NCBI GenBank assembly: GCA_016870175.1
Contig: VGCG01000003.1
Location: 1-64,000, forward strand
DNA length: 64,000 nt
Source: Alphaproteobacteria bacterium
Lineage (GTDB): Bacteria > Pseudomonadota > Alphaproteobacteria > Pelagibacterales > Pelagibacteraceae
Direction of reading: 5' to 3'
The translations under genes and the position numbers were made by a program. Numbering within the stretch: the first letter of the stretch is position 1; every line of letters begins with the position of its first letter. This document shows positions 12,174 to 27,795 of the stretch, piece after piece. The notes under the pieces are model-generated. The model was given only the letters and a program-made list of their open reading frames with translations. It was not told the DNA's origin and made no database searches.

Positions 12174-12233
12174 ATAGTAAAATTATAATAATTTTTAAAA
12201 ATTATAAAACAATGGTAGGATTTAAATAAATAT

Positions 12234-12719
12234 ATGCCTTCTTTTGATGTTGTAAGTAGAATTAATTATCAAGAATTTGATAATGCCCTTGCTAATTGTT
12301 TGAGAGAAATTGGAACTCGTTATGATTTTAAAGGGTTAAATATTTCAATTGAAAGAAAAGATAAGACAATTACCACTCTTGCTCCTGATAATTTAAAACT
12401 TAAGCAGATTAATGAATTACTACAAACTCATCTTGTAAGACGTAAAGTAGATCCAAGAGTAATTAAAATAAAAAATTCAGAAAATGCAACCGGTGGCACC
12501 ATAAGACAAATAAGTGAATTGAAAGAAGGAATTGATCAGGAGACAGCAAAAAAAATTATCACTCAAATAAAAAGCTTAAAACTTAAAATTCAAATTAAAA
12601 TTCAAGGAGAAGAGTTACGTGCTGATGGAAAAAAGAGAGATGACTTACAACAAGCAATCTCAACTATCAGAGCTATTGATATTGGTTTGCCAATTGAATT
12701 TATAAATTTTAGAGATTAA
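12234..12719 (+). CDS. yajQ: YajQ family cyclic-di-GMP/nucleotide-binding protein
   Basis: Cytoplasmic protein of the YajQ (UPF0234) family, made of two ferredoxin-like domains. Members bind nucleotides, and some bind cyclic di-GMP and modulate transcription factors. The start MPSFDVVSRINYQEFDNAL and the block TRYDFKG are hallmark sequences; QISELKEGID and KIQGEELRADGKKRDDLQ fit the second domain. The 161-residue length is exact for the family. It is a single gene, followed by about 290 bases of non-coding DNA. Confidence 0.93.
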   Translation: MPSFDVVSRINYQEFDNALANCLREIGTRYDFKGLNISIERKDKTITTLAPDNLKLKQINELLQTHLVRRKVDPRVIKIKNSENATGGTIRQISELKEGIDQETAKKIITQIKSLKLKIQIKIQGEELRADGKKRDDLQQAISTIRAIDIGLPIEFINFRD

Positions 12720-12811
12720 ATTTTGCAATCGCGCTAGAAAAATACCAAAATATAATCATAAAATTTTATCACATACTATTTGATTAAATTTATTTTTCTT
12801 AAAGACAGTAC

Positions 12812-12874
12812 ACGATTGGTAAAAAAAATTATCTTATTGCTACAAGGTGTCACGTCTACTGGCAATATCGGTTA
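12812..12874 (+). other. GC-richer stretch with inverted repeats upstream of DMGDH-like gene
   Basis: The non-coding stretch 12720-13007 has no credible ORF. Inside it lies a less AT-rich segment with TATTGC (12835-12840) and GCAATA (12862-12867), a perfect 6-bp pairing around a 21-base loop. An alternative outer pairing of CGATTG (12813-12818) with CAATATCG (12863-12870) is possible. It could be part of a leader RNA of the DMGDH-like gene or an unrecognised small RNA. It does not match glycine or SAM riboswitch cores that I can recall, and there is no U-tract behind it. Confidence 0.25.
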
Positions 12875-13007
12875 AAATAAATTTTAAAGCAAGTTTTCTA
12901 ACAAATAGAAAATAAATAAAATTTAATGTCTAAAAAAAATATCAAATAGAAATTTATACTTAATTAATTAAATTTAAGATAATTTATTTTTATGTTAATA
13001 TTTGTTA

Positions 13008-15437
13008 ATGGATAAAATTCAATCTCATGCAAAGCTTGTAATTGTAGGCGGTGGTATAATGGGTGTCAGTCTTTTATATCATTTAACAAAAGAAGGTTGG
13101 AATGATGTTGTTCTCATCGAAAAAAGTGAATTAACTTCTGGATCAACTTGGCATGCAGCAGGACAATGTCCACACATGATGGGAAGTTTAAGCCTTGCGA
13201 AAATTCATCTTCATTCAACAAATCTTTATAAATCACTAGAAAAAGAAACTGGTCAACCAACAGGTTTTCATGAAACGGGAAGTTTAAGACTTGCCTATAC
13301 TAACAAAGATCTCGAATGGTTTCATCATGTCAAAGGAGTTTTAGATATCGCAGGATCACCTTGCTCAATTATTTCAACTGATGAAATAAATAAGTTTCAT
13401 CCATTTATTAAACTTGATGGAATCTTAGGTGCATTTCATACACCTGAGGATGGCTATACTGACCCAACTAGCACTACTAATGCAATGGCTAAAGGTGCAC
13501 GAAACCGTGGAGCTAAAATTTATCGAAAAAATAGAGTGATTGACATCAAGCAACTTACGTCAGGTGAATGGAAAGTAATAACTGAAAAAGGTGAAATTAT
13601 TTGTGAACATGTGGTAAATTCTGCAGGGAGTTTTTGTCCAGAAGTTTCTGCGATGGTTGGTCTTAAAAATGTTCCAAGTATCAATATGATACATCAGTAT
13701 TTAGTCACAGAGTCTCATCCACAAATAGAAAAATTAAATAAAGAACTTCCAGTAGTTAGAGATCCAGAGTCTTCATCTTATTTAAGGCAGGAAGGTAAAG
13801 GATTATTAATAGGACCTTATGAAAAGGGCGCTGTAGCATGGGCATTAGATGGCATGGATTGGAAATTTGACATGCAATTATTAGAACCAGATTTAGATAG
13901 AATAGAAAAACACCTTGAAAAAGGTATGGATAGAATTCCACAGTTTAAGGACGTTGGAATTAAAAGAATTATTTGTGGTCCTATTACTCATACGCCTGAT
14001 GATAATTTTTTAGCTGGTCCAGCACCAGGACTAAGAAATTTTTGGATGTTTTGTGCAGCGAGTATTGGAATTGCTCAAGGAGGAGGGGCAGGAAAATACA
14101 TGGCTGAACAAATTGTTCACGGGGACTCTGAAATAAATATGTTAGAATTTGAACCAAGACGTTTCATGAGCTGGGTCAATAAAGAGTATTCAGTCGAAAA
14201 ATCAAAAGAACAATATAGAAGAATGTACGTTGCATCAATGCCCCATGAAACAATTGATGTTGGAAGACCCATGAAAATCTCAGGTGTATATCAAAAACTC
14301 AAAAATAAAGGTGCAGAATATTTTGATATTTATGGTTGGGAGAAACCAGCCTGGTTTAATCATGAACAAATTAAAGAAAATTTAAGCTTCAAACGAAATA
14401 ATATTTTTTCATCTATTCAAAAAGAATGTGAGCATGTTCATAATCATGTGGGTATAATTGATTTAAGCACATTCTCTAAATTTGAAATTATTGGAGAAGA
14501 TAGTTTTAATTTTTTAGATCGACTGTGTGTTAATCGAATTCCCAAAAAAAATGGTAGTATAGTTTTGACTCATCTGTTAAGTAAAATAGGTCGAATTCAA
14601 AGCGAATTTACTATTATAAAATTAAAAGAACATCTTTATTATGGATTGTCAGCAGCATCTTCAGAGATTAGAGATTTAGATTGGTTTACTCAACATAAAT
14701 TGAATAATGAAAGGGTTGAAATTAAAAATATTACTTTAAAAAAAGGTGTTCTTGGAATAATTGGACCTCAATCTAGAATTGTTTTACAAAAAATTACTGA
14801 AACTGATTTAAGTAATGACAATTTTCCTTGGCTAAAATCTAAAGAGTTGAAAATAAAAAATATTGATGTAATTGCCCTAAGAGTTAATTACATGGGTGAA
14901 CTTGGCTGGGAATTACATTGTTCAATGAATAAACTAAGTGAACTTTATGACTTAATTTGGGACGCTGGATTAGATTATAAAATTATTGATTTTGGTTCTC
15001 ATTCAATGAATTCATTAAGAATGGAAAAAGGTTATAGAGGTTGGGGTAGTGAATTAACACCAGAAATTTCTGTGGTTGAGGCGGGGTTAGATCGTTTTTT
15101 TAATTTAAAGCAAAAAAATAATTTTATTGGATCAAAAAAAATAGTTGAACTTACAAATCAAAAAATAAAAACTAAATTAGTTTACCTAGAGGTTGATGCA
15201 AAAAACGCTGATGTATTTGGTAACGAACCAGTTTATTTTCAAGATAAAAAAATAGGCTTAACAACCTCTGGTGCTTATGGTTTTAGAGTTAAAAAAAGTT
15301 TAGCTTTTGCTTATGTCGAAGCATCACTTGATAAACTTGGTAATGAATTTTTTATTGATATTCAGGGAGATAAAATAAAAGCTAGAATAATTCAAGAACC
15401 AGCTTTTGATCCAAATAATGAAAGATTAAAATCCTAA
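13008..15437 (+). CDS. Dimethylglycine/sarcosine dehydrogenase-like flavoprotein (DAO + GcvT domains)
   Basis: Two-part enzyme of the DMGDH/SARDH/PDH family. An N-terminal FAD-binding DAO domain (residues about 10-385) opens VIVGGGIMGVSLLYHL. The block SGSTWHAAGQ marks the flavin-attachment region, with His where DMGDH binds FAD covalently. From about residue 430 a GcvT-like tetrahydrofolate domain follows, with GIIDLSTFSKFEI, VNYMGELGWELH and GYRGWGSELTPE. The likely reaction is oxidative demethylation of dimethylglycine or sarcosine with formaldehyde passed to folate. BHMT, which releases dimethylglycine, is the next gene. ATG at 13008 is preferred over TTG at 13002. Exact substrate is uncertain. 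Confidence 0.85.
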   Translation: MDKIQSHAKLVIVGGGIMGVSLLYHLTKEGWNDVVLIEKSELTSGSTWHAAGQCPHMMGSLSLAKIHLHSTNLYKSLEKETGQPTGFHETGSLRLAYTNKDLEWFHHVKGVLDIAGSPCSIISTDEINKFHPFIKLDGILGAFHTPEDGYTDPTSTTNAMAKGARNRGAKIYRKNRVIDIKQLTSGEWKVITEKGEIICEHVVNSAGSFCPEVSAMVGLKNVPSINMIHQYLVTESHPQIEKLNKELPVVRDPESSSYLRQEGKGLLIGPYEKGAVAWALDGMDWKFDMQLLEPDLDRIEKHLEKGMDRIPQFKDVGIKRIICGPITHTPDDNFLAGPAPGLRNFWMFCAASIGIAQGGGAGKYMAEQIVHGDSEINMLEFEPRRFMSWVNKEYSVEKSKEQYRRMYVASMPHETIDVGRPMKISGVYQKLKNKGAEYFDIYGWEKPAWFNHEQIKENLSFKRNNIFSSIQKECEHVHNHVGIIDLSTFSKFEIIGEDSFNFLDRLCVNRIPKKNGSIVLTHLLSKIGRIQSEFTIIKLKEHLYYGLSAASSEIRDLDWFTQHKLNNERVEIKNITLKKGVLGIIGPQSRIVLQKITETDLSNDNFPWLKSKELKIKNIDVIALRVNYMGELGWELHCSMNKLSELYDLIWDAGLDYKIIDFGSHSMNSLRMEKGYRGWGSELTPEISVVEAGLDRFFNLKQKNNFIGSKKIVELTNQKIKTKLVYLEVDAKNADVFGNEPVYFQDKKIGLTTSGAYGFRVKKSLAFAYVEASLDKLGNEFFIDIQGDKIKARIIQEPAFDPNNERLKS

Positions 15438-15726
15438 GATTGAGTTTGTTTATCAATAATTTTTTAAAATTAAAGAAAGCATTTTTATCTATAAAATTTA
15501 AGAGTGAACAATCATACACCTTATTATAACTGCAATAAAATTTTTTTTATTGAAGAAAATAAATTTAATTTTGAGAAAACTAAAAATTCCATTTGAAAAT
15601 TAAACAGTAATCATATTATTATTTACAGTTAAAAAAATTATTATTTAAAAAATTTTAAATAACTAGAAAAAATTTCGTCAATAATATTCTATAGTTTTTT
15701 AATATTAAATTTATAAAAAATAACAT

Positions 15727-15768
15727 TTGACTTATGAGGTTAAATTTAATTAATAAGTATAGCGCTAT
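15727..15768 (+). promoter_or_regulatory. Putative promoter and palindrome upstream of bhmT leader
   Basis: TTGACT (15727-15732) is followed after 17 bases by TTAATA (15750-15755), a plausible sigma-70 promoter with a weak -10 box. The expected start would fall close to a perfect 10-bp palindrome, ATAGCGCTAT (15759-15768), which could be an operator or simply the 5' end of the leader. The preceding 15438-15726 is extremely AT-rich, and I see nothing coding or structured in it. Confidence 0.35.
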
Positions 15769-15788
15769 CTTAATTTTAATTGCAAATC

Positions 15789-15842
15789 GCCTAAAAAACC
15801 TGCTATAAACTAGGCAACCTTATAAACAGGTGGTTTTTTTTT
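15789..15842 (+). promoter_or_regulatory. Pseudoknot with terminator-like 3' end in bhmT leader (element 1)
   Basis: GCCTA (15789-15793) pairs with TAGGC (15811-15815). Loop sequence ACCTG (15798-15802) pairs with CAGGT (15827-15831), forming an H-type pseudoknot. The second pairing is followed by GG and nine T (15834-15842), so the ACCTG/CAGGT stem plus an A-run/T-run extension also looks like an intrinsic terminator. TATAAAC occurs twice, before each 3' strand. This organisation resembles the compact SAM-II/SAM-V riboswitch folds, and tandem SAM-II/SAM-V leaders are known in marine alphaproteobacteria. I cannot assign the class by eye. Confidence 0.5.
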
Positions 15843-15862
15843 AGAATTTTCTAAAATAAAAT

Positions 15863-15914
15863 CAGGTATTTAACCAAATTGTGCACCTTGCGCTATGCTA
15901 AAGCACTAAAATGG
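15863..15914 (+). promoter_or_regulatory. SAM-II/SAM-V-like riboswitch aptamer before bhmT (element 2)
   Basis: AGGT (15864-15867) pairs with ACCT (15885-15888). The loop ATTTAACC (15868-15875) matches the SAM-II core, whose U-rich strand lines the SAM pocket. GTGC (15881-15884) pairs with GCAC (15903-15906), and CCA (15874-15876) with TGG (15912-15914), closing the pseudoknot around CTAAAA, as in the SAM-II 3' segment GCTAAAAAGG. A purine-rich Shine-Dalgarno-like run (15915-15924) follows directly. SAM control fits bhmT, which makes methionine, the SAM precursor. Confidence 0.65.
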
Positions 15915-15989
15915 AAGAGGAGAGTAAATTGTTTTCACACTCTTTGCTTAGTGTTTTCAGTTTTTTTTCTTCTACCGCTAGGAGAGAAA

Positions 15990-17051
15990 ATGACAACAAA
16001 TAAATTAAAAGAAAGATTAGATAAGGGACCTGTAATTTGTGCTGAAGGTTTTTTATTTGAAATTGAAAGAAGAGGCTATATGGCGTCAGGAGAATTTGTG
16101 CCAATGGTGTCTTTGGATCACCCTGAAGTTCTTGAAAATTTGCACAGAGAATATCAGCATGCGGGATCAGATATTGTTGAAGCTTTTACTTACAATGGGC
16201 ACAGAGAAAAAATGCGAGTTATTGGAAAGGAAGAATTGGTTGAACCACTTAACCGATCTGCATTAAAAATAGCAAAAAAAGTTGCTTTAGATACTCCCAA
16301 AGGATCTAAGCCAAATTTAATGGCTGGAAATATCTCTAATTCAAATATTTGGAAAGAAGATGATAAGCAAGCTAAAAAAGAGGTTGAACGTATGTTTTCA
16401 GAGATGATTGGATGGGCAGTGGATGAGGGCGCTGATATGTTAATTGGTGAAACTTTTTATTATGCTGAAGAGGCTTTTAAGGCTTTAGAGATTATGAAAA
16501 AATCTAATCTGCCTACTGTATTGACTATCGCTCCAATGGGTGAAAATAAAATGAGAGATGGAAAATCTGTTGTTGATACCTGTAAAGAGTTGGAGCAAAG
16601 AGGAGCTGATGTTGTGGGATTAAATTGTTTTAGAGGACCTGCAACAATGTTACCGTTTTTAAAAGAGATTAGAAAAGCAGTCAAATGTCACGTTGGTGCT
16701 TTACCTATACCCTATAGAACAAATGAGAAATTTCCAACTTTTTTCAATTTACCAGATAGAGACGATTGTAGCTGCCCATCACCACATGGAAGAACATTTC
16801 CTACAGCTCTTGATCCACATTTTTGCAACAGATATGAGATAGGACAATTTGCAAAAAAAGCGAATACATTAGGTGTAAATTATCTTGGTGTTTGTTGTGG
16901 TGCTAACCCAATGTTAATAAGAGAAGTAGCCGAGTCTGTTGGGTTAAAAGTGCCCGCAAGTAAATACAGAGAGAATATGGAAAATCATTTTATGTATGGC
17001 ACAAATAAAAGAATTCCAAAACATATGACTGAATATGGAGACAAGGCGTAA
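15990..17051 (+). CDS. bhmT: Betaine-homocysteine S-methyltransferase
   Basis: Transfers a methyl group from glycine betaine to homocysteine, giving methionine and dimethylglycine. The Zn site is complete: the Cys of GLNCFRGP (about residue 215) and the Cys pair in GVCCGANP (about 300). VICAEGFLFEIERRGY near the N-terminus is the family start. ATG at 15990 is chosen because AGGAG (15980-15984) sits upstream and the N-terminus MTTNKLKERL fits; the frame stays open back to 15879 but that would run through the riboswitch. It is probably regulated by SAM through its leader and coupled to the DMGDH-like protein upstream. Confidence 0.92.
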   Translation: MTTNKLKERLDKGPVICAEGFLFEIERRGYMASGEFVPMVSLDHPEVLENLHREYQHAGSDIVEAFTYNGHREKMRVIGKEELVEPLNRSALKIAKKVALDTPKGSKPNLMAGNISNSNIWKEDDKQAKKEVERMFSEMIGWAVDEGADMLIGETFYYAEEAFKALEIMKKSNLPTVLTIAPMGENKMRDGKSVVDTCKELEQRGADVVGLNCFRGPATMLPFLKEIRKAVKCHVGALPIPYRTNEKFPTFFNLPDRDDCSCPSPHGRTFPTALDPHFCNRYEIGQFAKKANTLGVNYLGVCCGANPMLIREVAESVGLKVPASKYRENMENHFMYGTNKRIPKHMTEYGDKA

Positions 17052-17279
17052 ATAAAACTTTATTTTGTAGGACTTAAGTCTTTTGGGTAAATTAAGAGAT
17101 TGTACCTGACCGAAAAGCCCACATCGATCATAGTATTAATTTTAATGTGATCTTAAGTTTATAACTAATAAATATTAAAGATTTTAATGATTCCTGAGGT
17201 TTATATGTGTCATTCTTGACCATAGAAAAGCATCGAAATCGGATTATCTGAATAAACATAATATTAATTAAGAGATTAA

Positions 17280-17879
17280 ATGCAAAACCAACCAAATAAT
17301 ATTTCTGACAAAATAGCCTACGGATTAACTATGTTTTTTCGTTGGTTTGCTGACACTTTTTTCGCAAAACGTTACGGTCATAGAGCGGTAGTTTTAGAAA
17401 CTGTTGCTGGCGTTCCTGGTATGGTTGCAGGAATGTGGACTCACTTAAAGAGTTTACGACAACTACGTACTGGATATGGTCCAACCATTAGAACTTTGTT
17501 AAGTGAAGCCGAAAATGAACGTATGCATTTAATGATCTTCATAGCCATAATAAACCCAAATAGGTTTGAACGTTGGCTAATTATTTTTGCTCAATTCATT
17601 TTTTGGCATTTTTATTTTTTTCTTTATATTTTCTTTCCTAAAATTGCTCATCGTATGGTAGGATATTTTGAAAACCAGGCAGTAATCAGCTATACGCATT
17701 ATTTAGAGGAGATCGATGCAGGCAGAACAGAAAACATTCCTGCACCAAAGATTGCTATAGATTATTATGGTTTAAATCCAGATGCGAAGTTACGTGATGT
17801 TATAATTGCAGTAAGAGCTGATGAACAAGGACATGCTGATGTTAATCATGACATGGCCAATCAGCTTGCAAAAAAATAA
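17280..17879 (+). CDS. aox: Alternative oxidase (AOX)
   Basis: Di-iron ubiquinol oxidase of the inner membrane that passes electrons to oxygen without pumping protons. The four iron-ligand motifs are present: LETVAGVPGM, EAENERMHLM (ExxH), ENQAVISYTHYLEEI and RADEQGHADVNH (ExxH). Two hydrophobic helices lie between residues 95 and 125. The 199-residue length fits the short bacterial form without a mitochondrial targeting region or regulatory Cys. It is followed after 5 bases by the DUF3147 gene. The 228-base region upstream (17052-17279) has no ORF; a GACTTAAGTC palindrome at 17081-17090 may mark the end of bhmT. Confidence 0.93.
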   Translation: MQNQPNNISDKIAYGLTMFFRWFADTFFAKRYGHRAVVLETVAGVPGMVAGMWTHLKSLRQLRTGYGPTIRTLLSEAENERMHLMIFIAIINPNRFERWLIIFAQFIFWHFYFFLYIFFPKIAHRMVGYFENQAVISYTHYLEEIDAGRTENIPAPKIAIDYYGLNPDAKLRDVIIAVRADEQGHADVNHDMANQLAKK

Positions 17880-17884
17880 ATTAA

Positions 17885-18235
17885 ATGAATTGGATTATAC
17901 TAAAATATCTATTTACTGCAGGTGCGGTTGTTCTAATATCGGAGATTGCCAAAAAAAGTGATCGCCTGGGCGGCTTAATTGCAGCGTTACCCTTAGTAAC
18001 GGTCTTAACTTTACTATGGTTATACATTGAAGATCAACCAAAAGAAAAAATTGCCAATCATGCCTATTATACTTTTTGGTATGTATTACCAACACTGCCG
18101 ATGTTTATAATATTTCCTTATTTCTTAAAAAAATTTGGATTTTGGTTAACGTTAAGTTTAAGTGTAATAGTGACTTTAGTAGCTTTTTATATTTTTGCAA
18201 AATTTATTAAATTTTTTGGAATTGAACTTTTATAA
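17885..18235 (+). CDS. DUF3147 family small membrane protein
   Basis: Protein of 116 residues with four predicted membrane helices: residues about 4-20, 30-48, 62-80 and 86-110. The conserved block DRLGGLIAALPLVTVLTLLW places it in the DUF3147 family, whose function is unknown. The ATG comes 5 bases after the alternative oxidase stop, so the two are very likely co-transcribed. That suggests a role near the quinol oxidase, but nothing in the sequence proves it. Confidence 0.8.
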   Translation: MNWIILKYLFTAGAVVLISEIAKKSDRLGGLIAALPLVTVLTLLWLYIEDQPKEKIANHAYYTFWYVLPTLPMFIIFPYFLKKFGFWLTLSLSVIVTLVAFYIFAKFIKFFGIELL

Positions 18236-18290
18236 AAAGTTAAAACTTAAAAATAAATAGAAAATTATATCGTTTGAGGTATAATTTTAC

Positions 18291-18671
18291 ATGACATTCG
18301 TAAAAAATCTTAAATCAGTCACTAATCAAAAATGGACTGTGAGCGAAAAATATCCAGGAGTTAGATGGAAGTATTTAATTGACGGAGATTTTACCAAAAG
18401 TTCTTCTCTTTCACTCGGTTTTTGTGAAATAGCTCCAGGAGGCAACTTAACTCTTCATTATCACTCACCAGCAGAAATCTATGTGATTACAAATGGTAAA
18501 GGTATATTAAATAAATCTGGCGAACTTGAAGAAATCAAAAAAAATGATGTAGTTTATATTGATGGAAATGCAAAGCATGGTTTAAAGAATATTGGCACAG
18601 AAACTCTGGAATTCTATTGGATTTTTCCAACAGATCGTTTTTCAGAGATTGAATATTTTTCGTCAAACTGA
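18291..18671 (+). CDS. Cupin-domain protein
   Basis: Small single-domain cupin (126 residues). The two metal-binding cupin motifs are visible: GGNLTLHYHSPAEIYVITNG, with two His and a Glu, and later GNAKHGLKNIG with the third His. This is consistent with a mononuclear-metal sugar- or acid-binding protein, or with an enzyme related to DMSP lyases or isomerases, but the fold alone does not give a reaction. TATAAT at 18280-18285 ends only five bases before the ATG, so a leaderless transcript is possible if it acts as a -10 box. Confidence 0.8.
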   Translation: MTFVKNLKSVTNQKWTVSEKYPGVRWKYLIDGDFTKSSSLSLGFCEIAPGGNLTLHYHSPAEIYVITNGKGILNKSGELEEIKKNDVVYIDGNAKHGLKNIGTETLEFYWIFPTDRFSEIEYFSSN

Positions 18672-18709
18672 GTTATTAAGCACTGTAAAATTAAAAAATA
18701 CTTTAAACT

Positions 18710-19144
18710 CTAACTAGTTATATATTTTTGTAAGTGATTGATAAGTTCTTTTTGTTCTTCAATCATAATTTTTAGAACATCACCAATTGAAATTATTCCA
18801 ACAATTTTTTTGTTCTCTAAAATCGGAAGGTGTCTAATTTTTTTTTCAGTCATTATTTGCATGCACTGATCAATTTTGTAATCTTTAGTAATAGTTATTA
18901 ATTCTTTGGTCATAACTTCCTCTAACAATGTATCTTTACTATTCTTACCCTTTAAAATAATTTTTCTTGCATAGTCTCTTTCAGAAAAAATACCAACATG
19001 ATCATTATTATTGTCAACAACAATAATTGCACCTATGTTTTTTTCTGACATCAAGATAAGTGCTTGCCTTACATTTTGATCCTTCAAAATAGTCCAAATT
19101 TTTCTATTTTTATTTATTTTTAGAAAATCGTCTATTTTAAACAA
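18710..19144 (-). CDS. Two-CBS-domain protein
   Basis: Cytoplasmic protein of 144 residues made of a Bateman pair: CBS1 at about residues 10-65 (ALILMSEKNIGAIIVVD, FSERDYARKI) and CBS2 at about 75-130 (CMQIMTEKKIRHLPILE, GIISIGDVLK). Stand-alone CBS pairs bind adenine nucleotides and often act as regulatory sensors. It follows the 46-residue membrane protein on the same strand after 15 bases and is probably in one transcript with it. Confidence 0.88.
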   Translation of the reverse strand: MFKIDDFLKINKNRKIWTILKDQNVRQALILMSEKNIGAIIVVDNNNDHVGIFSERDYARKIILKGKNSKDTLLEEVMTKELITITKDYKIDQCMQIMTEKKIRHLPILENKKIVGIISIGDVLKIMIEEQKELINHLQKYITS

Positions 19145-19159
19145 AATTAGCTTCCTTTT

Positions 19160-19300
19160 TTATATGTTGTCCTTTTTTTTTAGAAGTTCAATTATTTCAT
19201 CTAGCTTCTTATGAACAACTTTAAGATTTTTATAAGGAACAAAATAAATAAATAGTCCTAGTACTATTATTGTTAAAATTAAAAATTGCAAAGTGCTCAT
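19160..19300 (-). CDS. 46-residue single-pass membrane micro-protein
   Basis: Reading the minus strand from ATG at 19300 to TAA at 19160 gives 46 residues. There is one hydrophobic helix (LQFLILTIIVLGLFIYFV, residues 4-21) followed by a basic amphipathic tail (YKNLKVVHKKLDEIIELLKK, residues 23-42) that could form a coiled coil. The layout, with a positive cytoplasmic tail and a downstream CBS gene 15 bases away, looks like a real small membrane protein rather than chance. No family name can be given. Confidence 0.55.
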   Translation of the reverse strand: MSTLQFLILTIIVLGLFIYFVPYKNLKVVHKKLDEIIELLKKKDNI

Positions 19301-19437
19301 ATATCTTTAATTCTATATTAAAACTAAGTTAATATACACGTAAAAACACCCAACTTTATCTTACTAAATTGTAAAACCAAATTAGGAATTCTTATTTTAT
19401 GATTTCAGTAGATCAAATAATTTTATTTATTAAAAAA

Positions 19438-20295
19438 TTATTTTTTATTTATTAGTTCACTTATAAAATTCTCTCCATAACCATCATCCACTGCTTTTTG
19501 AAAATATTTTTTATTTATCTCGGCAGTTTTTTCAGCTTCAGGGAAGTCTTTTAAAAGGTCTTGAATATAAATTAAATCTTTGACTGAATTTTTTGCAGTA
19601 AATTTAAAACCGGTATAATCATTATTTAACAAATTTTCAAAAACTCTACCTAAAGCTACTGAATTTCCTGATCCTAGTTTTGCAACATCGTATAATTTTT
19701 TAAGATCTAAACCTAATTCTCGTGCAGCTTTTGCCATATGATTGATCAATGCAGCATTTCCTAAAGTTAAAAAATTGTTTAAAAGTTTTGATTTTGCGCC
19801 CATTCCAACAGGACCAAAATGATAATAATTTTTACAAAATATTTTTAAGTAAGGTTCTGCTATTTTAAAATTTTCATTTGAAGCTCCAACAATCCCTCCT
19901 AAAATACCCTCTTCAGCTTGAACTGGACCACCCATCACTGGACACTCAACATATTTAATATTGTTAGCTTTGTAGATGGCCTCAGTTTCAATTGATCCTG
20001 TTTTATTGTGTGTCGTAATATCAATTACAAGCGAATCTGAATTTAATATTTTAGACATTTTTTCAGATATAAATTTAGCAATAGGAGTATTTGTTACACA
20101 CATAAACAAAATATTAAGGTTTTTATTTGCAAATTCTTCAAATGAATTAACCTCTATAGCACCCTCATTATTTATTTTATCAATAAATTTTCTATTTTTA
20201 TTTGCAATCACAAAAAGTTTATGGCCATATTTTAAGATATTTTTAGCTACACCATAGCCCATATAACCTACACCAATAAATCCAATATTTTTCAC
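19438..20295 (-). CDS. 3-hydroxyisobutyrate dehydrogenase-family NAD(P)-dependent oxidoreductase
   Basis: Beta-hydroxyacid dehydrogenase. The Rossmann motif GFIGVGYMGYGVAKN begins the chain. The substrate-binding motif appears as ECPVMGGPVQAEEG, near residue 120, and the catalytic Lys lies in GAKSKLLNN near residue 170. Length 285 is typical. Substrates of this family include 3-hydroxyisobutyrate, tartronate semialdehyde and succinic semialdehyde; the sequence does not decide among them. It is a monocistronic minus-strand gene. Confidence 0.85.
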   Translation of the reverse strand: MKNIGFIGVGYMGYGVAKNILKYGHKLFVIANKNRKFIDKINNEGAIEVNSFEEFANKNLNILFMCVTNTPIAKFISEKMSKILNSDSLVIDITTHNKTGSIETEAIYKANNIKYVECPVMGGPVQAEEGILGGIVGASNENFKIAEPYLKIFCKNYYHFGPVGMGAKSKLLNNFLTLGNAALINHMAKAARELGLDLKKLYDVAKLGSGNSVALGRVFENLLNNDYTGFKFTAKNSVKDLIYIQDLLKDFPEAEKTAEINKKYFQKAVDDGYGENFISELINKK

Positions 20296-20443
20296 TTTCT
20301 AAGATTATCTAAAATTTTAACAAGTGTCATTAGCTTATAACAAAAATTTTATAGCTTTGTATAATGGTTGAAAAATTTTTGGACCAAAATGAGCGTCAAA
20401 ATTTAAAGCAAATAGTTCGTCTACTATTTTCAGCTACCTCAGC

Positions 20444-20992
20444 TCAATAATTTATTTTAAACATGGCCTCATTTCTTCTAAAAGGGGGTAATGTAAAAGG
20501 ACTATTATAGGTAGCTCTTATAGGATTACCAATTATTGAAATATTATTCCTTGATAATTCTTTTTCTAAAATTTCTTTATGCTTTATAAAATTAGCATCT
20601 GAGGATCTGCCGGAATATCTTAATACTGCATAATAACCCTCTTCAATTTTAATAATTCTTACATCAGCTTCAGCAGGAACTGGTACATTACTTTCAACAA
20701 ATACTTTGGGTAAATAAAATTGCATAGTCATAACTCCACTTTTTTCTATAACAGTAACAGGTGTAGTCATTTCTATTTTTTGTTTTTTTTCATTTCCACC
20801 AGAAATATAATTATACAATTTTCTAAAACTATAGCTTTGATCAGAAGTTATGGTCTCTACTGCTAATCGATCTGAGTATTTTCTTATTTCATAAATATCA
20901 TTTTTGCTTACTAGTTCATATTTTGCTTCTTCAGTTGCCATTGCGTTAGAGTAGAGAAAAATAATTAAAATAAATATTTTTTTCACAATCAA
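20444..20992 (-). CDS. SOUL/HBP-family heme-binding protein, exported
   Basis: Protein of 182 residues with a signal peptide (MIVKKIFILIIFLYSNAMA, probable cleavage after Ala19) and a SOUL domain: YEIRKYSDRLAVET, RKLYNYISGGNEKKQKIEMTTPV (in part) and AVLRYSGRSSDANF are family blocks. SOUL proteins bind heme or tetrapyrroles weakly; bacterial roles are poorly known. The signal peptide places it in the periplasm. The IEMTTPV motif is intact. It is a single gene. Confidence 0.85.
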   Translation of the reverse strand: MIVKKIFILIIFLYSNAMATEEAKYELVSKNDIYEIRKYSDRLAVETITSDQSYSFRKLYNYISGGNEKKQKIEMTTPVTVIEKSGVMTMQFYLPKVFVESNVPVPAEADVRIIKIEEGYYAVLRYSGRSSDANFIKHKEILEKELSRNNISIIGNPIRATYNSPFTLPPFRRNEAMFKINY

Positions 20993-21217
20993 AAGTTACT
21001 AAATATTTTTTTAGGAGTCTATTAGCTAATAACTTTATTATTTAAATGTTATTTTTTAAATTAGCTATGATTTTAGTTAAGATACCTCATTTTTTTCAAT
21101 TAGAGAAAATAGGAATTATTTTTTTTAAGTTAAAAAAAACGGCTTTATTTTTTAAAAAAAATTAATATATTTTCAAGAAATTTTTAATTAAAACTTTGTA
21201 ATAAAAAATTATATTTC

Positions 21218-21868
21218 ATGAAAAAATTAAGTTTTTATATAATCTACTTTTTCTTTAATACTGCAGGATTTGCCAATGAAAAACTGATTAAATCAATTGA
21301 TTTAAAAATTCAAGAACTTGGTGAATATTCAGAAATTAAAAACTATCCAACAGGATTTTTTGAGGTGGTTGCAAAACACTGTGAAGAAAATAAAGATTTT
21401 AAATGCATAACAGCTGATGTAGCAGGTAAGATGTCGGCTATGTTTAATCGAGGTGAAACTTATAATCAAAGTAATCCAGAAAATCAATTATATGCTATGG
21501 CCTTATTCGAGATTTTTTACTTAAGTAATTTAAATAACAATAAATATTATTTAACCAAATTTAAATCTGGGTGGCCAAAGGAAAAAAAATTTAGCAAACA
21601 AGTCTCGAACTTGATAAAGCTTAATGAGTCGCGAAGAAAAATGAGGGAGACTGTTGGTTTAAGCTTATCTAACAGTCCAGAGGAAGCAATGAATGCTTAT
21701 TGGAATCTTGGAACTTTTTTATCAAAGGGAACTTTACAAAAACAGAATGTTTCAAAAGAATATCAAGAAAAAAAAAATATACTAGACTCTTATAACAATT
21801 CTATCTCAAAACTTAAATCAACTATCCAAAATCAAGAATTGGAAGAAATTTATGATTACTTAAAATGA
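21218..21868 (+). CDS. Exported protein of unknown function, partner of the 790-aa repeat protein
   Basis: I do not recognise a family. The 216-residue product begins with a signal peptide (MKKLSFYIIYFFFNTAGFA, likely cleaved near residue 19). The rest is helical and charged, with two Cys (CEENKDFKC, about residues 63-69) that could form a disulfide, and a C-terminal coiled-coil-prone segment after residue 185. A NAYWNLGTFLSKGT segment hints at a TPR-like helix. Its stop overlaps the start of the 790-aa gene by 4 bases (ATGA), so the two products are probably made together and act together in the periplasm or outside. Confidence 0.7.
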   Translation: MKKLSFYIIYFFFNTAGFANEKLIKSIDLKIQELGEYSEIKNYPTGFFEVVAKHCEENKDFKCITADVAGKMSAMFNRGETYNQSNPENQLYAMALFEIFYLSNLNNNKYYLTKFKSGWPKEKKFSKQVSNLIKLNESRRKMRETVGLSLSNSPEEAMNAYWNLGTFLSKGTLQKQNVSKEYQEKKNILDSYNNSISKLKSTIQNQELEEIYDYLK

Positions 21869-24237
21869 TAAAAATAATTTATTTTATTTTGAGTTTATTT
21901 TTATTTACGATAAGCTTTATTAACCAAGGCTCAGCAGAAATTTGTAAAAACATTCAAGACGCGTACAAAGATTTTGATAGTGATATTAAAAAATTAAATA
22001 AAAAAGTTAATAAAACTAAAAATCCAAATGATCCTAACCTACAAGCTATAGATGAAGCTTTCGTACAAATTAATCAAATACTCTCTGTAGCCAATCCATC
22101 TTGTGATAAAAAAAATTTAGATCTGCTTGAGTCTAATTTAAACTTTCTTTCAGCAATGATTGATAAGACTTCAAAATTAATTCCTAATGAATATGAAAAA
22201 GACTTAAGCAAAATTGACATCTCACAAATTAAAGAGGTTGACCCTCAGATAATTACTGAAATTTCCTCTTCAATGAAATTAAGAAGGACAGATAATCAAC
22301 AGACTTTGCTTGAGGACATGATAGTTCTTAAGGAGAATGGGGTTGATGTTTTTAAAATTAATTCTGATTTAAATAAAAAAGGTATTTCTATAATTTCTAA
22401 TGAGGAAATCTCAGAAGTAATTTCTAAGAACGCAGATGATAAAAAGTTAAAAAGTGACATCATAAAAGAATTAAAATTGAGCGGAGCAACAAGTGATGAG
22501 ATACTCCAACTTGAAAAAGGCATTCAGCTTGCAAGCATCCAGCCTGAAAAAAATTTGAAAAGCGAGGATAATCCTATTAAAATTGAACGTGTTAAACCTT
22601 CGGAAAAAAGAATTGACTCAATAACCACACTTAAAACCCTTTCATTATTAAAAATAAATAATGCTGATGACAGGCAATCAACAGGGGTTCCATATGAAGA
22701 ATTTTCTAAAATAGAAAACGAATTAAGCTCGCAGATTAAGGCAGCAGGTTTCAATCAAGAACAATCTAAACAAGTGATGTTTAATCTTAGAACGAAGTAT
22801 GTTGATGTTTGGTTTCATGCTAGGGAAGTCTATGAAAAAGTCTTAACTAATGGTGGAACTATTGAACAAGCAGTAAGTGCTGAACGAAATTGGCTTAATC
22901 AAGGTGGTGGTAATTTTGGTTTAAAAAAATGGATAGATTTATTTAATAAAAATACATCTACGACCATTGAGCAAAGATATTCTTTGAAAGATTATTTAAA
23001 TGAACTTAATCCTAACCAAATAAAAGTGGAATTGGCTTCTGCAGATCGAATTGCTAAAGAAGCACAGGCAAGAGTTTTGAGTTATTTTACAGTTGAAGAT
23101 CCAACTGGTGAACGTAGATCAGCGGGTAAAATCGTTGACGAAGCGAAAGCAATCAGCAATAAAGTAAAAGAGTCTGCAATAAAATATGGTATCAACGCAT
23201 CGAAAGCAGAAATTTTAGCTTCCAACGCTGCAATGTCTTATTTGAATACTTGGTATGCAGGAACCCTCGTATCCGAAGCACAACTAGCAAAGGGTTATAC
23301 GTGGGAAGGAGTAAATGGAGCTGATCAAGCAGTCATGAATTGGTACAACAGTTTAGCTGAAGACAGTGAAATAAAAAAATGGGACGCTAGGCTCTACAAT
23401 CCATCTGATGATAATGATTTTAATGATGATGAATTAGACTATCTTCCTAATGATGAGGCGCTTCAAAAATGGTTTTCAAAATTAAATGACTCTGATTTTA
23501 CCAAACTCAACCCTTCAGATCAAAGAATAAATTCCGAAGCTTTAGCACGCACACTTTCGTACTTAAAATTTAATGATCAAGGAAATATTGCAGGAGATCT
23601 TGGCAAAGAGGTTGAAGAAATACAAAAATCAATAATAGATTATGCTACTAGTCAAGGTATCAAAGGTAAAGAGATTGAAATCATATCAACAAATGCTGTA
23701 AAAAGATATTTAGATATTTGGTTCGAGGGAACGTTAATTTCGGAAACAGAATTAGCAAAAGGTAATACCTGGAAAGAAGCAGACGCAGCAGTAGATAAGT
23801 GGGCAAATTCTTTGACAGGCGATATGGTAGTATGGGCTAATCTATTGTACGGTGATAATGAAAGATTTAAAGCTGACGATCAGTTTTTTACAAAATTATC
23901 TAATTACTTATTAGTAGATCTAGAATTAGGCAAGACTAAATCACTGGCTGATCCTAAAAAAGACAACCCTAATTCTATATCTAAAAATACATGGAATCCA
24001 AAAGATGCGATAGGAACAGGAAATTTTAAAGGTCTTAGTGCTGCAGAAGCGCTAGGAAGTAATTTAAGTGCAGCAGTAAAAGAAATACAAGCTTCACTAA
24101 ATTCAGGAGCAGTAATTAGAGGGGCTGATGGAAGCGAAATATCAGTAGAAGCTGCACTGTCATCTATGCCTGCTGGAGGTAAGATAAATCCGGATGGAAC
24201 ACTGGAGCCTGTACCTTCAACTACTGTTAATCCCTGA
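21865..24237 (+). CDS. Large exported protein with three ~110-residue repeats, unknown function
   Basis: The 790-residue chain starts with a signal peptide (hydrophobic residues 3-19, likely cut near GSA24). Residues 25-245 are Lys/Asp-rich and helical with Cys27 and Cys80. Then come three copies of a repeat at about 254-366, 398-515 and 556-665. Copies 2 and 3 share YL.TW/IWF/Y.GTL.SE..LAKG.TW....W.NSL; copy 1 is more divergent (YVDVWFHAREVYEKVL). Between copies lie Asp/Asn-rich linkers such as PSDDNDFNDDELDY (about 513-526), resembling Ca-binding stretches. The tail is Gly/Ser/Ala-rich and ends without a membrane anchor. No catalytic motif is seen; surface or extracellular structure seems likely. 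Confidence 0.7.
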   Translation: MIKIIYFILSLFLFTISFINQGSAEICKNIQDAYKDFDSDIKKLNKKVNKTKNPNDPNLQAIDEAFVQINQILSVANPSCDKKNLDLLESNLNFLSAMIDKTSKLIPNEYEKDLSKIDISQIKEVDPQIITEISSSMKLRRTDNQQTLLEDMIVLKENGVDVFKINSDLNKKGISIISNEEISEVISKNADDKKLKSDIIKELKLSGATSDEILQLEKGIQLASIQPEKNLKSEDNPIKIERVKPSEKRIDSITTLKTLSLLKINNADDRQSTGVPYEEFSKIENELSSQIKAAGFNQEQSKQVMFNLRTKYVDVWFHAREVYEKVLTNGGTIEQAVSAERNWLNQGGGNFGLKKWIDLFNKNTSTTIEQRYSLKDYLNELNPNQIKVELASADRIAKEAQARVLSYFTVEDPTGERRSAGKIVDEAKAISNKVKESAIKYGINASKAEILASNAAMSYLNTWYAGTLVSEAQLAKGYTWEGVNGADQAVMNWYNSLAEDSEIKKWDARLYNPSDDNDFNDDELDYLPNDEALQKWFSKLNDSDFTKLNPSDQRINSEALARTLSYLKFNDQGNIAGDLGKEVEEIQKSIIDYATSQGIKGKEIEIISTNAVKRYLDIWFEGTLISETELAKGNTWKEADAAVDKWANSLTGDMVVWANLLYGDNERFKADDQFFTKLSNYLLVDLELGKTKSLADPKKDNPNSISKNTWNPKDAIGTGNFKGLSAAEALGSNLSAAVKEIQASLNSGAVIRGADGSEISVEAALSSMPAGGKINPDGTLEPVPSTTVNP
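22624..23859 (+). repeat. Three coding repeats within the 790-aa secreted protein
   Basis: The repeat units are about 22624-22962, 23056-23409 and 23530-23859. They are recognised at protein level. The best block is NAAMSYLNTWYAGTLVSEAQ in unit 2 against NAVKRYLDIWFEGTLISETE in unit 3, followed by LAKG.TW in both. Unit 1 keeps the LSLL start, the helix ending at W and the closing NWLNQ. The DNA copies have diverged strongly, so the duplication is old and no recent recombination is apparent. Confidence 0.7.
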
Positions 24238-24331
24238 AATAACAATCTATCTAATCAATAATTTTATGGATTGGTTAATTTCTTCTAATATAGCTTTTAC
24301 TAAATTATATAATTATAAATATTTTCAAATT

Positions 24332-25480
24332 TTATAAAAATTTTGAAAGTATTTTAGGAATTTGATCTTTAAAACCAAAAAAACCTTTGTTTGAAAAAGG
24401 GAAACAAAATTGATCATATTCTCTTGCCAAATAAAAAATTTTAACTTTATCTTTGAATTCACTAATAAAATCATTTTCATATCCACAACTAAGGTATGGC
24501 ATAATCACATGATCAATTTTTTTTTCTTTTATAAATTTTAAAATATCATCAGAATTTTTGAAAACTGTACTAGCACCGAAATCACTTTTAATTTGATCAA
24601 AAATTTCTAAATTAATTTTTGCCTTGAAATCTAATACTTTTTTTGAATAATTTTTATTATGCAAGAAATCATTAAAATCAAATAAACCATAATTGTTAAA
24701 AGTTTTTTGTTTATGTTTTAATAAATAACAACTATCTAAATTGTGCACTAAAAATAAAGAATTTTCGTACTCCATGTTATCAAAGTGAAGAGGAGATTGT
24801 GCAAAATTTTCACTTTCAGATAACGGGCTTGCGTTTTCATTTAATTTTAAATTCTCATATTTTTTAGTTGAAAATTTATTTATATTCCAACTAGTTGCTA
24901 AATAATGTTTTCCTTTTGTTTGAAGTCCAGCAACCCAACGCCAACTTAAAGTATTTGAGGCAGCATCACCATCAAGTAAATGTTTAAGAAAAAAATCAGC
25001 TCCTAATTGCCATGGGAGTTTTAAAGTGAAAATCCAAATACTTGCAAACCACATTCTTGCGTGGTTATGCAAATATCCTGTCTCTTTTAACTCCTGTGCC
25101 CAATCATTAAAACATTCAACAGTTGTTTTTGCATTAATTGCATTTTGGTAATTAATATTTTTTTTATAGTCTTCTAAGTTGACCAGGTCTTCTCTATATA
25201 CCTCCCAAACCCTTGGTCTCAATTCTAACCAACCTTTCCAGTATGTTCGCCAAAATACTTCCTGAATAAATTTTTCAATAGTTGTGTAAGAATATTTTGA
25301 GTGGGCAGATTTTATAAGTTCTAACTCGTCTATAACGCGGTGAGTTATGTATTTAGATAAACAACTGGTATTTGTTCTGTTAAATTTACCAAAATCAAAA
25401 TTTCTATCTCTTGAATATTTGCTTAAATATTTTTCAGAAAAATTATTAAAATGTTTAAGTGCCTCATCTCTAATATGCAT
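24332..25480 (-). CDS. Photolyase/cryptochrome-family FAD-binding protein of unusual layout
   Basis: Residues 1-215 are the helical FAD domain of photolyases: TSCLSKYITHR (phosphate loop), FIQEVFWRTYWKGW, TGYLHNHARMWFAS, then LLDGDAASNTLSWRWVAGLQTKGK. The usual N-terminal antenna-binding Rossmann domain is absent. Instead about 130 residues follow the FAD domain (from about 245), with strands such as SLFLVHNLDSCYLL, IDHVIMPYLSCGY and VKIFYLAREYDQFCFP that look Rossmann-like. This could be a rearranged antenna domain or a different one. Repair of UV damage or a light-sensing role is inferred from the family; the substrate is unknown. Confidence 0.75.
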   Translation of the reverse strand: MHIRDEALKHFNNFSEKYLSKYSRDRNFDFGKFNRTNTSCLSKYITHRVIDELELIKSAHSKYSYTTIEKFIQEVFWRTYWKGWLELRPRVWEVYREDLVNLEDYKKNINYQNAINAKTTVECFNDWAQELKETGYLHNHARMWFASIWIFTLKLPWQLGADFFLKHLLDGDAASNTLSWRWVAGLQTKGKHYLATSWNINKFSTKKYENLKLNENASPLSESENFAQSPLHFDNMEYENSLFLVHNLDSCYLLKHKQKTFNNYGLFDFNDFLHNKNYSKKVLDFKAKINLEIFDQIKSDFGASTVFKNSDDILKFIKEKKIDHVIMPYLSCGYENDFISEFKDKVKIFYLAREYDQFCFPFSNKGFFGFKDQIPKILSKFL

Positions 25481-25601
25481 AGTTTAATAAATTATTGCAA
25501 GTTTCAAAAAACTTCACCAAACAAGTTTAATATCTTTTTTTTTCTTTTGTTAATAAGAAATAAAATTTTTGACTCTCTAACTTTTTATTTAAATTAGTGA
25601 A

Positions 25602-25650
25602 ATCCTCACTCATTTAGTGTAAACTAAATAAAAACTATAGATTTGAGGAT
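25602..25650 (+). promoter_or_regulatory. Nested inverted repeats upstream of the 75-aa gene
   Basis: ATCCTCA (25602-25608) pairs with TGAGGAT (25644-25650), and inside it TTTAGT (25613-25618) pairs with ACTAAA (25623-25628) around a GTAA tetraloop. Together they can form a two-part hairpin that ends 20 bases before the ATG at 25671. There is no U-tract, so an operator or leader structure is more likely than a terminator. The rest of 25481-25670 shows nothing further. Confidence 0.35.
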
Positions 25651-25670
25651 AAATCAAGTTTTGAGATATC

Positions 25671-25898
25671 ATGAATAAAGAAAATGCCAGTAAATTGTGG
25701 AAATTAATTCAGACCTCCGGTGATTTTTTAAAAGGTCAATTACCAGAACATCCAAATCATCCAAAAGGTCGTAACCCTTATGCACATGTTGCTTTATGCG
25801 TTAAAGAAAAATTCAATGCTAGTTACAAAGACATTCCAGACGAAAAATTTGATGAAGTAATAAAATATATAGAATTTATAAAAAAAAATCCGAATTAA
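25671..25898 (+). CDS. Small conserved-looking protein of unknown function (75 aa)
   Basis: Soluble 75-residue protein with no signal peptide or membrane helix. It has an amphipathic N-terminal helix (NASKLWKLIQTSGDFLKGQL), a Pro/His-rich middle (PEHPNHPKGRNPYAHVALCV) with one Cys, and a C-terminal helix DEKFDEVIKYIEFIKKNP. The composition and balanced codon use suggest a genuine gene. No family name comes to mind. It overlaps the 3' end of the convergent MOSC gene by 4 bases. Confidence 0.7.
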   Translation: MNKENASKLWKLIQTSGDFLKGQLPEHPNHPKGRNPYAHVALCVKEKFNASYKDIPDEKFDEVIKYIEFIKKNPN

Positions 25899-26671
25899 CC
25901 TAAGGTTATTTTGTCATTTAAAGATATTTTGCCACTGTTTAAGGGACTTAAGTAAATGCCCATGTCGATATGGCCGTAAGTTTTTTTTAACTTTAAAGGG
26001 AGATTAATATCTTGTTCAACTGAGTTGACTTTAAGATTGGTGGCTGAACATCTTGGAATATGATTTAAAACTTTAAATTTAATTTGATTAATTTTAATGA
26101 TTTTATCAATCCAACTTCTTTCATCAAAAGCATTAATTCCATTGATATAAATATTCCCTCTAAAACGTTCAAATTCAATTTTTCGATTAATTTTTCTTTC
26201 AAAATCTTTAATACTATTTAAATTTATTAATGAAATTGTGTTTGAAACACGGTTTGAATAAGTGGTATCAAAAAACGGATATTTTATATTTTTTAGTAAA
26301 TAAATTGGCCCAGTTATAGTTTTTTCAATTTCTAAAAATTTATTTGAAAGTTTAAGAGCTTCTTTTTGTTTACTTGCATCTATTGAAATAATCTTTCTAT
26401 TTTTTAAGAAAAGACTAATTAAGCCATTTTCATAAACAAAATTAAATTTATTTAAACTGGGTGTATTTTTAAGAGTTAAAAAATTTATTAAGTGTCTTTG
26501 ATGTGGATTTTTTGCTATTGATTTAGCCTTATCAAGTTTAAGATTTCTAGAAAAAGCAAAAATTCTATCATCTATAATTCCTAAATTTTTTTTTATTAAA
26601 AAAAATTTTGCTTTTTGAAAAGATAATGATTTAATCGGCGAGTAATAAAGCGATGAAATAGTACAATTCAT
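25895..26671 (-). CDS. MOSC-domain protein
   Basis: The 258-residue chain has an N-terminal MOSC beta-barrel (ISSLYYSPIKSLSFQKAKF, GIIDDRIFAF) and the C-terminal MOSC domain with FRGNIYINGINAFDERSW and a Cys in IPRCSATNL, the expected sulfur-carrying position. MOSC proteins (MOCS3/mARC-like) bind the molybdenum cofactor or carry sulfur for it. It is 8 bases downstream of the amidinotransferase on the same strand. Since moeA and mobA lie just upstream on this strand, a molybdenum-linked reductase role is plausible. Confidence 0.82.
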   Translation of the reverse strand: MNCTISSLYYSPIKSLSFQKAKFFLIKKNLGIIDDRIFAFSRNLKLDKAKSIAKNPHQRHLINFLTLKNTPSLNKFNFVYENGLISLFLKNRKIISIDASKQKEALKLSNKFLEIEKTITGPIYLLKNIKYPFFDTTYSNRVSNTISLINLNSIKDFERKINRKIEFERFRGNIYINGINAFDERSWIDKIIKINQIKFKVLNHIPRCSATNLKVNSVEQDINLPLKLKKTYGHIDMGIYLSPLNSGKISLNDKITLG

Positions 26672-26679
26672 CCTATAAA

Positions 26680-27795
26680 TTATTGTTTTGGGAAATAATC
26701 CTTTAATTCTCCTTCACGATATACATCTGCAGTGCAGCAATGTAACCCGCCACCAAATGCATAAGCATCTCTAAGTTCAACTGGTATTACTTCCATGCCT
26801 AATTTATCTAACTGCTCAGCTTGATAAACTTCACTTTTTTCAACACAAACTGTTTTTGGATCAAGAACTAAAACGTTCATCGACAGCCAAACAGATGAAT
26901 AACATAATGGTGGTGGTTGGTTGTGCGCCGGTTGAGCTGAGTCAACTATTCTCCATCCATTATTTTCAAATAATTTTCTTTGTTCTTTTGGTAAACGTCG
27001 TTGAGGATTATTAATTATTAATCCCTCTTTTATAGGTGTGAAAGTTGCATCTATATGAATTGGATATGGATCTCCAGGAAAATTGACAGCATGAACTCTA
27101 TGGTCTTTGAAATGTCTTTTTAGCCAATCAATACCTTTTAAATTAGTTGTAAAACCGTGTTGGACTACCAAATCTTTTCCAAATCTTAAAACATCAGCTG
27201 CATCAAACAAAGGCTCTTCTTCGGTAGTTACAAAAAACTTTTTTTCTGTCCAATCTAATCTTTTTTGAATCCCAATTTTATCAGATAAATAATCCTTTCG
27301 ATAATCTGCGTCGGTTAATCTTGGTTTTGGAGCAGATTCATGTCTCATGTTGTTGTCTTGATTATAATACATTTTTAATAAAGGCCTATAACATAAGTAC
27401 TCAAACCATCGACAACGATAACTCATCGTAGCTTCTAATATTTCATTTCCCACAGTTAACAAAACATCTCTCGGGGGCATACAGCCAAACATTGTTTCTG
27501 CTCTCCAATCTGGAGTTGATATATTTTGATTAAAATTAATTGGAGTTGGTCGATCAACTTTTATTCCTCTTTTTTTTAACATATTTGCAAAATCATCAAG
27601 TAATTGGTTCGCTTTATCGACTGTGTCCTGAGTTCTTGGTCCAAATTGACCCCTCATGTCTGAGTCCTCTGGAACTTTTGCATCAAGTGCAGGTTCAGGT
27701 GCTGGAATACAGGTTCCATCAGCTTTTCCAACAATCACATGTTTTAACGGATCCCACTCATTCCAACTATTTACAATTTTTTTATTTTCAATCAT
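26680..27795 (-). CDS. Glycine amidinotransferase (AGAT)-like enzyme
   Basis: Homologue of arginine:glycine amidinotransferase, which moves the amidino group of arginine to an amine. Active-site blocks are clear: FDAADVLRFGKDL (Asp, near residue 200), PIHIDATFTPI (His, near 246) and FGGGLHCCTADVYREG (catalytic Cys, near 352), aligning with Asp254, His303 and Cys407 of human AGAT. The N-terminus NEWDPLKHVIVGKADGTCIP also matches. Length 371 equals the mature enzyme. It lies 3 bases after a creatinase gene, pointing to guanidinoacetate/creatine-type substrates; no guanidinoacetate methyltransferase is visible, so the true acceptor is open. Confidence 0.87.
   Translation of the reverse strand: MIENKKIVNSWNEWDPLKHVIVGKADGTCIPAPEPALDAKVPEDSDMRGQFGPRTQDTVDKANQLLDDFANMLKKRGIKVDRPTPINFNQNISTPDWRAETMFGCMPPRDVLLTVGNEILEATMSYRCRWFEYLCYRPLLKMYYNQDNNMRHESAPKPRLTDADYRKDYLSDKIGIQKRLDWTEKKFFVTTEEEPLFDAADVLRFGKDLVVQHGFTTNLKGIDWLKRHFKDHRVHAVNFPGDPYPIHIDATFTPIKEGLIINNPQRRLPKEQRKLFENNGWRIVDSAQPAHNQPPPLCYSSVWLSMNVLVLDPKTVCVEKSEVYQAEQLDKLGMEVIPVELRDAYAFGGGLHCCTADVYREGELKDYFPKQ

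Follow-up and report, generated by a model that had tools for sequence, protein, structure and literature searches.

The window, i.e. the whole 64,000 nucleotide stretch of DNA that was analysed, carries two overlapping genes, here called A and B. Both were taken from the ORF list. Gene A (21218..21868, + strand; profile A1) encodes a predicted exported helical partner protein of 216 aa and gene B (21865..24237, + strand; profile A2, E 9e-60) a predicted exported triple-repeat protein of 790 aa. As originally predicted the two ORFs overlap by four bases, which form the stop/start sequence ATGA at 21865..21868 (+). Many relatives have the same -4 or -1 overlaps. Against the profile of the A core window A scored 251 bits and against the N-terminal profile of B window B reached E 9e-60, both proteins being themselves rows of these profiles. 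Pairwise BLAST matched window B to the B protein of G078b with E 2e-19.

The N-termini of both proteins are signal-peptide-like in their hydropathy, in line with the prediction that both products carry signal peptides. Reading the sequence by eye places the putative signal peptide of A, MKKLSFYIIYFFFNTAGFA, at 21218..21274 (+) and that of B, MIKIIYFILSLFLFTISFINQGSA, at 21865..21936 (+). The segment of B has a hydropathy of 2.47. That of A is only moderately hydrophobic (1.37 vs 2.1-2.9 in most relatives). Behind the signal segments, hydropathy revealed no stretch in A or B long enough for a membrane anchor, such that the tail of B is free of an anchor as had been proposed.

Searches of Pfam, PHROGs, NCBIfam, PADLOC and PDB sequences with the single proteins and with profiles gave no credible match, and Foldseek returned nothing at E<=0.001 from PDB and BFVD. 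The earlier statement that no family is recognised thus held for sequence as well as structure searches, none of which gave a confident match to a characterised domain. VIA-align found common helical-bundle matches only. Tape-measure proteins were enriched in the viral Foldseek list (E 0.02-0.8, TM <=0.13), which we took as generic long-helix similarity. No relative of A/B was found in viral collections and phage records, and the PADLOC defence models gave 0 families for window A and B; PADLOC matches of a 1139-aa relative sit on its coiled coil and are against SMC-like models. The literature that we searched holds no description of the module. Within the libraries, structures and papers searchable A/B is therefore new as a protein family. 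Since lineage-specific orphan families are common, "new" applies to the family and not necessarily to the kind of function.

Distribution and coupling of the two genes

The profile of A matched in 32 of 300 genomes of the genus (~11%) and in 17 of 197 genomes of the order; in 289 genomes of the class and 249 of the phylum there was no match beyond the window's own genome, which is 82% complete at 0.96 Mb. Scanning 84,980 species genomes with one short motif, an approach that may miss distant members, gave 38 loci. All 38 belong to Pelagibacteraceae, i.e. SAR11, as do the named relatives, and judged by isolate names most come from single-cell genomes. Relatives in the genome collection were reached only via the A profile, the search with the single B protein being unsuccessful.

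At 28 loci A lies directly before B with a gap of -14 to +5 bases, and at 25 further loci among those examined the two are fused. For two A genes no B could be recognised (in L160 and, for a 237-aa A, in L149). The fused proteins (554-873 aa, uncharacterised; e.g. L165 and G022) contain A and the N-terminal domain of B in the same order behind one signal peptide; in G022 a single 672-aa protein aligns to A and then to the start of B. They differ from the window pair in being a single chain, some with an N-terminal SHOCT segment, and in most of them the repeats are replaced by a shorter C-terminal part of another kind (..YGSFADAVAAYN..GTNYTVE.AKEALG). The fused forms make up one clade plus an independent fusion in L147 that lies inside the split clade, and the history of A/B includes at least two fusion or fission events. 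At L147:1028-8206 a split pair (320 + 1177 aa) is directly followed by the independently fused A-B protein of 873 aa. At L045:6341-8465 an unrelated-looking 391-aa ORF takes the place of the B domain behind an A that belongs to the fused clade; this may be a broken copy of a fused gene.

Tree distances of A and of the N-terminal domain of B correlated with r=0.92 in a mirror-tree comparison, the permutation maximum being 0.42. For both genes dN/dS was ~0.2-0.3 in close relatives and it was low in all compared parts of B, which indicates purifying selection in the relatives. A/B constitutes a genuine two-part family of Pelagibacteraceae that is kept by selection, and its pairing is well supported. 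The proposals of a single two-gene system and of a selected function were thus both supported, the former by the adjacent split loci, the fused loci and the congruent trees, the latter by the purifying selection.

The SHOCT domain (PF09851) follows the signal peptide in 3 of 22 fused relatives (best E 1.8e-6) and was without a match in window A or B. Oligomerisation has been tested for one SHOCT domain and found unsupported (PMC3581485), such that the domain gives no function for A/B.

Predicted interface of A and B

Insight into how the two proteins may interact came from the AlphaFold model of the fused protein L165, in which residues 101-360 have a pLDDT of ~81-97. According to the model and the alignments its helix 252-279 is the counterpart of the last helix of split A, which for the window pair would correspond to 21755..21856 (+). 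The helices 285-306, 313-328 and 333-354 match the first three of split B, and short strands lie at 244-247 in the A part and 359-362 in the B part. Residues ~250-360 form a four-helix bundle, as confirmed by structural matches. From this secondary structure and the bundle matches of L165, which belongs to a different clade than the window pair with ~30% identity in A, we read the last helix of A and the first three helices of B as one composite four-helix bundle domain, in which the two strands may pair. By extrapolation from the fused chain, the split proteins should then form a complex, and A and B are probably an obligate heterodimer. In the window the B part of this predicted interface is the N-terminal helical domain (21937..22404, +; residues ~25-180), a separate domain that is conserved family-wide. 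The alignment of relatives shows F76, M94, E98, R139, M142 and R143 as conserved residues of A.

A is basic in 34 of 34 proteins, which is common in these surroundings (56% of neighbouring ORFs are basic), and B is acidic in 30 of 30 with a pI of 4.1-5.0, which is unusual there (neighbouring ORFs 7%). The number of Cys is even in 61 of 64 proteins, and 108 of 115 Cys have a second one no more than 12 residues away, compared to 500 of 2047 in the neighbouring ORFs used as control. Such close pairs fit disulfides in an oxidising compartment outside the cytoplasm.

The bundle of the base aligns to cytochrome b562/BRIL-type bundles with a Z of 9.9 and an rmsd of 2.2 over 95 residues, lower than the Z of ~13 above which a match of helical bundles means more than a common arrangement. 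In contrast to cytochrome b562 the N-terminal domain of B has no invariant residue and hence no conserved heme ligands. Homology between A and the N-terminal domain of B was unsupported: the match had a probability of 11% and covered no more than the junction between the end of A and the start of B. Altogether A/B provides a testable two-chain architecture with no known relatives, for which the natural fused and split forms should ease in vitro complex tests.

Modular architecture of B

Common to all B proteins are the first ~150-170 residues, whereas the remainder varies by type. The length ranges from 319 to 1648 aa and the central regions are interchangeable: one type has three helical repeats (the window and L141-L145), one consists of coiled-coil proteins of ~1140-1650 aa, one has ~45-residue repeats (L113/L168), one is Gly/Met/Ala-rich with ~820-850 aa, and a short form comprises 319 aa. 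The 692-aa B at L113:6965-9043 (the same as L168) contains about nine of the ~45-residue repeats with the pattern ..LSPRGHSIY.SMK.YG.S..DIK..LY.AGE... The Gly/Met/Ala-rich form occurs in L046-L049, L104, L105, L108 and L110 and in several loci adjoins a ~336-aa secreted protein (MRGKDGQWVRPHPGPFIWNHIEKEKG) as well as paralogous secreted proteins of ~380-480 aa.

For window B three repeats of ~110 residues had been proposed. The number and the unit size stood, with three copies of a ~105-115 residue core, but the period is longer, ~150 residues (offsets 147-159). Smith-Waterman scores of 93/200/100 for the three comparisons were far above the maxima of 61/69/62 from 2000 shuffles (z 11-28), i.e. 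the repeats are homologous. They occupy only residues ~254-665. Alignment scores, profile matches and predicted secondary structure place repeat 1 (aa 254-361) at 22624..22947, repeat 2 (aa 396-512) at 23050..23400 and repeat 3 (aa 555-665) at 23527..23859, all on the + strand. All copies have the same predicted series of helices, with lengths of 14/14/14, 19/21/20, 31/31/30 and 13/11/14 residues, such that the repeat units agree with each other. Trp, Tyr, Asp and Gly positions are conserved within them. The three-repeat architecture was also found in five Pelagibacteraceae relatives, with 18 of 18 copies detected at E<=1e-33. An AlphaFold model of window B from 15 sequences was of moderate quality (pLDDT 68, pTM 0.52), the repeats being mostly at pLDDT 70-94.

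Two details of the original prediction failed. The acidic linkers were thought to resemble calcium-binding stretches; the linker SDDNDFNDDELD at 23404..23439 (+) is neither EF-hand nor RTX in the motif scan, which gave no match to these patterns anywhere in window B, nor did Pfam match an EF-hand loop or calcium-binding family there. The GGxGxD nonapeptide repeats of RTX and type I secreted adhesins are likewise not found in window B. The tail, described as Gly/Ser-rich, has a Gly+Ser content of just 23%, and its residues 725-785 belong to a conserved C-terminal module (24037..24225, +; GAVIRGADG.EISV.EAL..MP.GG.INPDGTL.P) that is common to B proteins with other middle regions. Over these 61 residues the identity to the 1139-aa B of G078 is 72%, compared to ~26% elsewhere. 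In 201 genus genomes the module was confined to B proteins, and the independently fused protein of L147 ends in it. We rejected a recent exchange of the tail at the DNA level on account of its 66% DNA identity, and a comparison of the tail with the repeat left homology between them unsupported. The repeat of window B strongly fits L141-L145 and only weakly the B group of 1138-1177 aa (E 4e-8 to 9e-5), the group that the C-terminal module fits; the B proteins are thus mosaics.

Genomic setting and possible roles

The pair lies in a slot (10899-27795) between a gene for an MFS transporter (10899-12173) and one for an amidinotransferase (26680-27795). The edges of this slot are conserved in relatives and its content is variable. 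In the window it holds, among others, dimethylglycine-dehydrogenase-like, betaine-homocysteine-methyltransferase-like, SOUL and cryptochrome/photolyase-like genes in addition to A/B. In relatives the borders are the amidinotransferase with a 75-aa ORF on one side and an MFS transporter block on the other. In G174 the slot contains a fused A-B in the same orientation as the split pair of the window; the 12 further genomes examined have neither A nor B there, some of their stretches stopping before the MFS gene. Other types of the A/B module occupy other chromosomal sites.

The periplasm, which is large in SAR11 cells, is the likeliest location of A/B, because both proteins have signal peptides and no later membrane segment and because the loci examined share no recurrent secretion gene next to the pair. 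A further step across the outer membrane is possible. We tentatively favour a module that is exported, probably to the periplasm, and acts as a scaffold or in binding, its base being constant and its arm variable. A and B would be co-translated, would each cross the inner membrane by means of a signal peptide of their own and would remain soluble. Basic A and the first ~150 residues of acidic B would then fold into the shared helical base, in which the last helix of A would complete the four-helix bundle with the first three of B and a strand of A would pair with one of B. The rest of B would be the working arm, in the window the three ~150-residue all-helical repeats plus the C-terminal module. 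Lineages would keep the base and change the length (319-1648 aa) and type of the arm, which in such an envelope scaffold or binding rod would set the bound target or the reach. A scaffold for an envelope complex is the best of the three roles originally suggested, its location and role being inferred; for the other two, a surface layer or an adhesin, no positive evidence was obtained. SAR11 are among the most abundant cells of the ocean and have streamlined genomes, in which an exported module of 2-5 kb that purifying selection maintains should earn its cost.

Two-partner secretion systems, autotransporters, RTX adhesins and S-layer proteins are large, exported and repeat-bearing, sometimes with a small partner gene. 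A/B resembles them in its large exported repeat protein, but B is without their defining domains or motifs. Pfam matched neither a TPS domain nor an Omp85-type partner in A or B, and compared to such a partner A has 216 aa and is predicted to be helical from the fused homologue. SLH or known S-layer domains gave no Pfam match either, which covers S-layers with known domains only.

An adhesin at the cell surface or released, whose B would bind particles, cells or glycans beyond the outer membrane with A as chaperone or anchor, is rather unlikely. While B is large, modular, exported and repeat-bearing, with a variable arm and a disordered tail, and the distribution of the pair is patchy, B is predicted to be all-helical, Pfam and NCBIfam gave no adhesin, autotransporter, TPS or RTX match, the RTX motif is absent, and the loci examined have no recurring secretion gene. 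Somewhat less probable is a polymorphic envelope system of SAR11, in which the constant two-chain base would carry a recognition arm that lineages exchange in chromosomal slots of variable content, for phage exclusion or for recognition of other cells or particles.

The narrower idea of an envelope factor that excludes phages or serves in competition, with constant base, exchangeable arm and variable slot as signs of an arms race, fits the variable slot, the sparse distribution, the hypervariable middle and the mosaic tail of B. We consider it improbable given that window A/B has no PADLOC match and no viral relatives, that no toxin-like or immunity gene was recognised beside it and that dN/dS is low across the compared parts of B. 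Equally improbable is a protein that binds or stores a nutrient or metal in the periplasm, with one ligand per repeat: the kept Trp/Tyr/Asp/Gly positions, the exported location and the oligotrophic host would suit it, but in the loci examined no transporter is conserved next to the pair, and neither a known binding-protein fold nor a metal motif was found. The fused versions in relatives and the incomplete assembly (82%) might have raised the suspicion that the ORFs are spurious or decaying, or that faulty assembly split a single gene. This highly improbable explanation is refuted by the split pairs with a second signal peptide in 28 loci, many from single-cell genomes, and by the purifying selection.

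As a separate observation, L045:13048-14939 encodes three similar secreted proteins of ~200 aa in tandem (..DISEFQIEGMSIGDSLLDY..).
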